The notes under the pieces: model-generated | Databases searched by the model: none | What the model saw: only the letters and a program-made list of their open reading frames with translations | What the model was told of the DNA's origin: nothing | In this document: positions 17,636 through 19,016 of the stretch, one piece after another | How the letters are laid out: every line of letters begins with the position of its first letter | How positions within the stretch are numbered: position 1 is the stretch's first letter | From: Parvibaculaceae bacterium Mf 1.05b.01 | Lineage (GTDB): Bacteria > Pseudomonadota > Alphaproteobacteria > Parvibaculales > Parvibaculaceae | Assembly: GCA_000509225.1 (NCBI GenBank) | Contig: BAOK01000001.1 | Coordinates: forward strand, 1 to 64,000 | Reading direction: 5' to 3' | DNA: 64,000 nt | Translations under genes and position numbers: made by a program

Positions 17636-17873
17636 GTGCCCATTTCCCGTCCGCGAGACATTTGTCCTGCGCGTTCGGTCCCTTTGCGTCTTGCAACAGC
17701 CTTATGGTGCGCTGAAAGAGTTAATGAACGCTTACATTTAGGCGCTGAGGCTAGGTCCAAGGCCATGTTGATTTGCTGCAACGCAATCTGCGAAAAAACA
17801 GGAAAAAGTCGAAATATGCCCAAATAATAAGCGATTTTTCGAAGGTTTTCCAAAGTGTCGCAGGTGTTTGTCC
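17636..17873. other. Non-coding region 5' of the lytic transglycosylase and of the sRNA candidate
   Basis: Nothing here looks coding. It is AT-richer than its surroundings around 17790-17850 and must hold the minus-strand promoter of the transglycosylase; I could not place that promoter with confidence. Confidence 0.5.
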
Positions 17874-17902
17874 TTGATTTTTGTGCACTGCACGCGCATA
17901 TC
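17874..17902 (+). promoter_or_regulatory. Housekeeping-type promoter for the sRNA candidate
   Basis: -35 TTGATT at 17874-17879, a 17-base spacer, and -10 CATATC at 17897-17902. It matches the alphaproteobacterial CTTGAC-N17-CTATAT pattern and would start transcription at about 17907-17909, exactly where the folded element begins. Confidence 0.6.
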
Positions 17903-17904
17903 TC

Positions 17905-18006
17905 AAGGGCGATCAGGCGTGAGTTTAAGCTCCCTGATAGCAGCCCTTCTTGGGCGTTTCCTCCCTAGACTTGGGCCATGCTGGCAACAGTATGGCCCCT
18001 TTTTTT
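17905..18006 (+). ncRNA. Candidate trans-acting small RNA (~100 nt)
   Basis: No protein is plausible here, yet the + strand holds a promoter, a structured body and a strong terminator. Stem 1 pairs AAGGGC (17905-17910) with GCCCTT (17943-17948); inside it ATCAGG (17912-17917) pairs with CCTGAT (17933-17938) and GAG with CTC around a TTTAAG loop. A linker (17949-17972) carries an unpaired TTTCCTCCC, complementary to Shine-Dalgarno sequences. Then comes the terminator stem. Exposed CCUCC loops are known from several alphaproteobacterial trans-sRNA families; I cannot assign it to a named one. The RNA is divergent from the transglycosylase and convergent with the amidohydrolase gene. Confidence 0.6.
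17973..18006 (+). terminator. Strong Rho-independent terminator of the sRNA candidate
   Basis: An 11-bp stem (GGGCCATGCTG with CAGTATGGCCC, one G-U pair) capped by a GCAA tetraloop and followed by C and seven T. It works only in the + direction, although no + strand gene lies upstream, which is what points to an RNA gene. Confidence 0.85.
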
Positions 18007-18041
18007 GGTATAGGGCTCAGCGGATCTCAGGAAGATTGGTT

Positions 18042-19016
18042 TCAGGACGCTTTTCTTTGGGATGCAGTCCAGGGTGCCCGGCGCATTTCGCGACCCAGCT
18101 TGCGGACCAAACGGGTCATGTCTTTAGACAAGCGTGTAATGCCTGCGCGACGTTGTACCTTTTGCTCGTCCATGTAGAGCGTTCGGTTGATTTCAACCTG
18201 TATCGCGTGAAGGCCCTGAGAGGGTGCGCCATAGTGCTCAGTGTTGAAGCCGCCTGCATAAGGGTTGTTGCGGGTCACTCTGTACCCCATAGACTTCAGG
18301 ATACGCTCTGCGGATTCCACGAGTTCTTGTGCGCAAGACGTTCCGTATCGATCGCCGAGGACAATATCGGGGCGATTTGCATCTATTTCTTCGTCGAAGG
18401 GGCCGCCTGTTGAGGGCATGGAGTGACAATCGATCAGCACTGCCTGGCCGAACTGCCGATGTGTTGTCTCCAGCAAGCTCCTGAGTGTTTCGTGAAAGGG
18501 CATATAGATGTCGCGAATGCGTGTCTCGGCCTCTGAGTAGGGGAGTGGTGTTTTGTAGATCTCCGTTGCTTCCGCCACGATCCTCGCAATGGTGCCCAGG
18601 CCACCTGCTACTCTGATTGACCGAGTGTTTACGTGCGGCGGGAGAGGGTCCGCAAACATTGCCGGGTCGAGCTCATAGGGCTCGCGGTTTACATCCAGAT
18701 AGGCACGCGGAAAATGGGCCCGCAGCAACGGGGCGCCTAGCTCAACCGCGCCTGCAAAAATCTCATCGACGAAACTATCCTCCGAACGCCTCAGCGTCAG
18801 GGGGTCGAGATTTGACGATGCTAAAAACCTGGGTGGATACACCCGGCCTGAGTGTGGTGAGTTCAGGACAAATGGCAGCGTCTGTTTCCGGGGTTCCAGG
18901 ACTTCGAACGGTTCCTGAAAGTCCTCTTTCGCAGGCGAGCGATCGTCAACAGCCTCATTATTGCTGAAGCCCTCAATCTCCTGATCAGATAGCGAAGGGG
19001 TTTGGTTGAGATCCAT
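18042..19016 (-). CDS. N-formylglutamate amidohydrolase family protein
   Basis: 324 residues. Family signatures: LPFVLNSPHSGRVYP, RSEDSFVDEIF, RAYLDVNREPYELDP, LIDCHSMPS, and C-terminal QVEINRTLYMDE. Family members release formate from N-formyl-glutamate at the end of histidine degradation, but no hut genes are present here. The first ~45 residues are an extra acidic tail, absent from the second family member at 57655-58503. The real substrate is therefore uncertain. Confidence 0.87.
   Translation of the reverse strand: MDLNQTPSLSDQEIEGFSNNEAVDDRSPAKEDFQEPFEVLEPRKQTLPFVLNSPHSGRVYPPRFLASSNLDPLTLRRSEDSFVDEIFAGAVELGAPLLRAHFPRAYLDVNREPYELDPAMFADPLPPHVNTRSIRVAGGLGTIARIVAEATEIYKTPLPYSEAETRIRDIYMPFHETLRSLLETTHRQFGQAVLIDCHSMPSTGGPFDEEIDANRPDIVLGDRYGTSCAQELVESAERILKSMGYRVTRNNPYAGGFNTEHYGAPSQGLHAIQVEINRTLYMDEQKVQRRAGITRLSKDMTRLVRKLGREMRRAPWTASQRKAS

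Follow-up and report, generated by a model that had tools for sequence, protein, structure and literature searches.

A member of the alpha-r8 (MmgR/SisA) small RNA family with a putative PhaR operator in its promoter in a Parvibaculaceae bacterium

What is encoded by the short segment between positions 17874 and 18006 of the window, the 64,000-nucleotide stretch of DNA analysed here? The host is an alphaproteobacterium of the Parvibaculaceae, near 'Rhodobiaceae' and Ca. Phaeomarinobacter MAGs, and the initial annotation, made from the raw sequence, had proposed for this segment an unannotated small RNA that is structured and transcribed from a promoter of its own. The sRNA gene itself was correctly spotted. 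As judged from sequence comparison, the element is a real sRNA gene and a member of alpha-r8 (MmgR/SisA, suhB of Rfam), a family already known across alphaproteobacteria, in which target mRNAs have their ribosome-binding sites blocked by the exposed CCUCC sequence.

The Rfam search that had been suggested was run as a covariance-model scan of the entire window and gave two matches, one tRNA and RF00519 (suhB/MmgR, alpha-r8). The latter was located at 17936-18013 on the plus strand with a score of 65.2 bits (E 3.6e-11), about 24 bits higher than the gathering cut-off of 41, and was aligned end to end, over model positions 1-77 of 77, including the family-specific GCCCUUCUUGGGCGUUUCCUCCCUAGACUUGG core. 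The RNA thus belongs to a catalogued family and is not new. The alpha-r8 RNAs are characterized by a weak hairpin followed by the 10-mer UUUCCUCCCU, by a Rho-independent terminator and by linkage to the gene for N-formylglutamate amidohydrolase (FGase) (PMC12559287). In the window, the exact 10-mer was found at 17957-17966, with the weak hairpin GCCCUUCUUGGGC (17942-17954) immediately 5' of it and a Rho-independent terminator at 17973-18006, and the FGase gene adjoins the sRNA. RF00519 was detected above the cut-off in 44 of 61 sampled genomes, with one such copy in the host genome. A further host match at G000:C1:208515-208593 (L002; 38.7 bits, below the cut-off), similar in sister species, was rejected as a second copy; it is without the 10-mer and seems to represent the tail of a coding gene followed by that gene's terminator. 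In one sister species, a divergent alpha-r8 RNA with the exact 10-mer is present as a second copy at another locus (L038:1521, minus strand; G002:C1:1842788-1842871; 50.8 bits), and its 5' part and terminator are different.

The promoter was read directly from the plus strand as TTGATT (-35, 17874-17879) and CATATC (-10, 17897-17902) separated by a 17-nt spacer, in agreement with the initial annotation, and a CTTGA...CATAT-type block keeps its position among the alpha-r8 relatives. The proposed terminator was likewise present, with an 11-pair stem and a GCAA loop (17973-17998) followed by CTTTTTTT. A consensus promoter scan did not list the sRNA promoter, which alone is unremarkable, and terminator-like sites were no commoner than in shuffled sequences, leaving the terminator scan uninformative by itself. 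The element is convincing because it is conserved in relatives, rather than on the strength of such scans.

The transcript is predicted to extend over 17909-18006 (plus strand), with a start estimated at about 17908-17912 and a length of about 95-99 nt. This estimate was based on the spacing after the -10 element and on the operator-to-start spacing of Sinorhizobium meliloti mmgR, which points to a start near 17911. With starts at 17908-17912, folding favoured the family structure with an open 10-mer, and the fold z-scores were -3.6 to -3.9 against dinucleotide shuffles. The predicted structure consists of a 5' hairpin (AUCAGG...CCUGAU with inner GAG/CUC, 17912-17937), the family hairpin GCCC-UUCUU-GGGC (17942-17954), the single-stranded anti-Shine-Dalgarno 10-mer and the terminator with its U tract. 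The CCUCC-bearing stretch described as exposed, TTTCCTCCC(T) at 17957-17966, was 0.85-0.90 unpaired for these starts. Together with the RF00519 match and the conservation in relatives, the folding bears out the proposed small RNA as structured and served by a promoter of its own.

The covariation test proposed by the initial annotation was carried out on relatives of the sRNA, and compensatory changes were found in both the terminator stem and the 5' hairpin; the sequences under all conservation counts given here are related, and the counts overstate their independence. In the alignment of 21 relatives, no variation was seen in the 10-mer or in the GCCC/GGGC hairpin. Double compensatory changes affected 3 of 12 consensus pairs, each of them in the terminator stem. 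The leader, from the -10 element to the family hairpin, folded better than shuffled sequences at the majority of 70 loci (median z -2.0, as compared with +0.37 for a same-length upstream control; Wilcoxon p about 1e-11 for sequences that are not independent). MAFFT misaligned the 5' hairpin in the mixed alignment A1, and a more uniform subset of 18 family sequences was used for its analysis. Within this subset 91.7% of the cells could pair, both partners had changed in 4 of 12 pairs, and the covariation score of 0.190 was reached by none of the 500 shuffles and by no slid version. The 5' hairpin, which the Rfam model does not cover, is conserved and covaries in these alignments.

The 5' stem had been described as two-layered, and only its inner hairpin stood up to this comparison. 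The outer layer would be formed by an upstream GGGC (17907-17910) that competes with the GGGC of the family hairpin for GCCC (17942-17945), and such competition could constitute an RNA switch that opens or masks the 10-mer. For a transcript starting at 17907, the outer layer indeed formed with a probability of 0.70, and the openness of the 10-mer decreased to 0.65 from about 0.9. However, the layer requires transcription to begin no later than 17907 and was abolished by starts at 17908 or later. The four upstream bases GGGC are present only in the species of the window, being replaced by AGGC, GTGA and others in relatives of the genus. The outer layer was therefore rejected as a conserved switch, being absent even in the sister species, and we regard a switch of this kind as very improbable.

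Slightly less probable still is that the RNA represents a different or new anti-Shine-Dalgarno sRNA, such as CcsR/'cuckoo' of Rhodobacter, NmsR of Neisseria or SorY, and resembles alpha-r8 only by CCUCC and a terminator. NmsRb, SorY and CcsR/'cuckoo' do share with the present RNA the general architecture of a CCUCC-bearing single strand beside a terminator hairpin, and weak sub-threshold matches were obtained for NmsRb (RF02877, 28.1 bits) and SorY (RF02651, 17 bits). These scores are far below the respective cut-offs of 52 and 111, and both RNAs differ in conserved core and neighbours; for CcsR/'cuckoo', compared by its general description, core and neighbours are also different. This alternative is refuted by the end-to-end RF00519 match with the GCCCUUCUUGGGCGUUUCCUCCCUAGACUUGG core and by the synteny with the FGase gene typical of alpha-r8. 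Of the characterized RNAs, MmgR of S. meliloti shares the whole-model Rfam match, the weak hairpin, the anti-Shine-Dalgarno 10-mer and the U-rich terminator, but is shorter, 77 nt against the 95-99 nt predicted here. SisA, the FGase-linked alpha-R8 sibling of Caulobacter crescentus, shares the 10-mer UUUCCUCCCU, the location downstream of the FGase gene and a host encoding Hfq; Caulobacter carries four copies, as against the one above the cut-off here.

The neighbouring FGase gene (18042-19016, minus strand; PF05013, 259.9 bits) is convergent to the sRNA and represents the conserved alpha-r8 neighbour, a diagnostic feature missed by the initial annotation. Amidohydrolase loci with 1400 nt or more of sequence beyond the gene were examined for the 10-mer in that interval, one mismatch being allowed. 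The 10-mer was convergent to the FGase gene in all 31 Parvibaculaceae-type loci, those closest to the window, and in 55 of 74 alphaproteobacterial loci, with none on the same strand. Although an open frame of 181 aa with a TTG start (17868-18413, plus strand) spans the sRNA region, the possibility that the segment is merely the leader or body of this ORF, or belongs to the terminator region of an adjacent gene, is practically negligible, as conservation is at the level of nucleotides and stems, relatives differ in length by single bases, the ORF runs antisense to the FGase gene and contains the sRNA terminator, and no likely gene lies directly upstream of the sRNA on the plus strand. No intrinsic terminator after the convergent amidohydrolase gene was found at 17957-18041 on the minus strand. 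Transcripts reading through from this gene would be perfectly complementary to the sRNA (CTAGGGAGGAAAC) and might act as a built-in sponge.

The promoter spacer carries a second feature that the initial annotation had missed. The mmgR gene of S. meliloti is repressed by PhaR (AniA), whose binding site is a palindrome with the core YGCRNYGCR; the mmgR operator was efficiently bound by PhaR, and gel shifts were abolished by mutation of the palindrome (PMC12542648). Using this published motif (PMC12542648), we identified the putative operator TTTTTGTGCACTGCACGCGCA at 17878-17898 (plus strand). Its core TGCACTGCA (17884-17892) fits YGCRNYGCR and is located between the -35 and -10 elements; against the longer published consensus, the left arm fits and the right arm has two misfits. 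All 38 Parvibaculaceae loci carry the core 5' of alpha-r8, where shuffling would give 4.8, as do 15 of 32 other loci, where it would give 2.4, and many family members carry a second PhaR-type site near the start. A PhaR operator in the promoter just 5' of the start is also a feature of MmgR, its counterpart here being putative. By analogy with that system, transcription of the sRNA is probably repressed by PhaR via the TGCACTGCA palindrome.

Nearly the same promoter layout (CTTGAAACTTTTGTGCAGTGCACATATC, with the PhaR core in the spacer) was observed at L075:1490-1821 (G000:C2, about 1851324), preceding a 59-aa ORF (MKTDTDQPFG...) that has no Pfam match and may encode a small protein under PhaR control. 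Two PhaR-like palindromes were also located at the 5' end of phaR (G000:C1:610509-610655; L056/L057), one just upstream of and one overlapping the longest predicted start, a layout consistent with autoregulation.

The family identity, the synteny, the conservation of stems and operator, and the presence of phaR and hfq genes in the host are directly established. From the behaviour of relatives, we infer transcription, Hfq dependence, target repression and PhaR binding. The full model, comprising alpha-r8 identity, an RNA of about 95-99 nt, Hfq-aided repression by the 10-mer and a PhaR-repressed promoter, is given a probability of roughly 0.87. According to this model, a housekeeping-type promoter would direct synthesis of an RNA starting at about 17908-17912, which would fold into the 5' hairpin, the GCCC/GGGC hairpin, the unpaired UUUCCUCCCU and the terminator, the U tract of the latter being the usual site for Hfq. 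With Hfq, the 10-mer would pair with ribosome-binding sites of the (U)AGGGAGGA type and repress translation of several uptake, catabolic and lipid genes, and PhaR, bound to the palindrome between -35 and -10, would repress the sRNA. Repression of uptake and catabolic targets through pairing of the 10-mer was proven for SisA of Caulobacter by compensatory mutations. Likened to such an anti-Shine-Dalgarno sRNA, the RNA is probably the multi-target translational regulator that the initial annotation envisaged.

A total of 19 AGGGAGGA-N(3-12)-ATG sites were detected in the host genome, preceding the genes for a WS/DGAT acyltransferase (C1:563837), two AMP-binding ligases, an FMN oxidoreductase (AGGGAGGAACATC), a molybdopterin oxidoreductase, an MFS transporter and others. 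All 7 genus genomes retain the WS/DGAT leader UAGGGAGG, whereas the sequences farther upstream diverge, and other candidate leaders recurred in several of these genomes. Since strong ribosome-binding sites are conserved anyway, these leaders, including that of the wax-ester/DGAT acyltransferase, are candidate targets only, and the AGGGAGGA sites could be no more than strong ribosome-binding sites. Of seven AGGGAGGA sites whose paired ATG opens no long ORF, none stood out as a CrfA-like sponge, and Rfam detected only tmRNA at these sites.

Limiting the accumulation of PHB granules is the function of MmgR, and the family was named for this granule phenotype. The host genome encodes PhaR, with both the DNA-binding and the PHB-accumulation Pfam domains, and Hfq, but differs from that of S. 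meliloti in that no match was detected for PhaC_N (PHB synthase) or Phasin_2. PhaC_N was missing from 6 of the 7 genus genomes (G000-G006), the host included, and PhaR was present in all 7; in the other genera of Parvibaculaceae, all sampled members at least 90% complete carried PhaC_N, and PhaR too. The polymer thus seems, from gene content, to have been mostly lost in the host genus. Because PhaC_N and Phasin_2 gave no match in the host, the granule role of MmgR is unlikely here, unless another synthase exists, and the role of SisA in repressing uptake and catabolic genes by pairing of the 10-mer would be the better guide. As PhaR and Hfq are present and six of the seven genus genomes are without the PHB synthase, the link from PhaR to the sRNA likely exists without PHB. 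It is a rather doubtful further step that, after the loss of PHB, the PhaR circuit was kept and redirected to another signal and to other carbon stores, with the WS/DGAT message among the targets of the sRNA.

To the known family the present analysis adds a family-wide putative PhaR operator, a covarying 5' hairpin, and a PhaR/alpha-r8 pair that survives without a detectable PHB synthase. Such a pair represents a natural case in which the general role of the family in carbon metabolism could be told apart from its granule phenotype.
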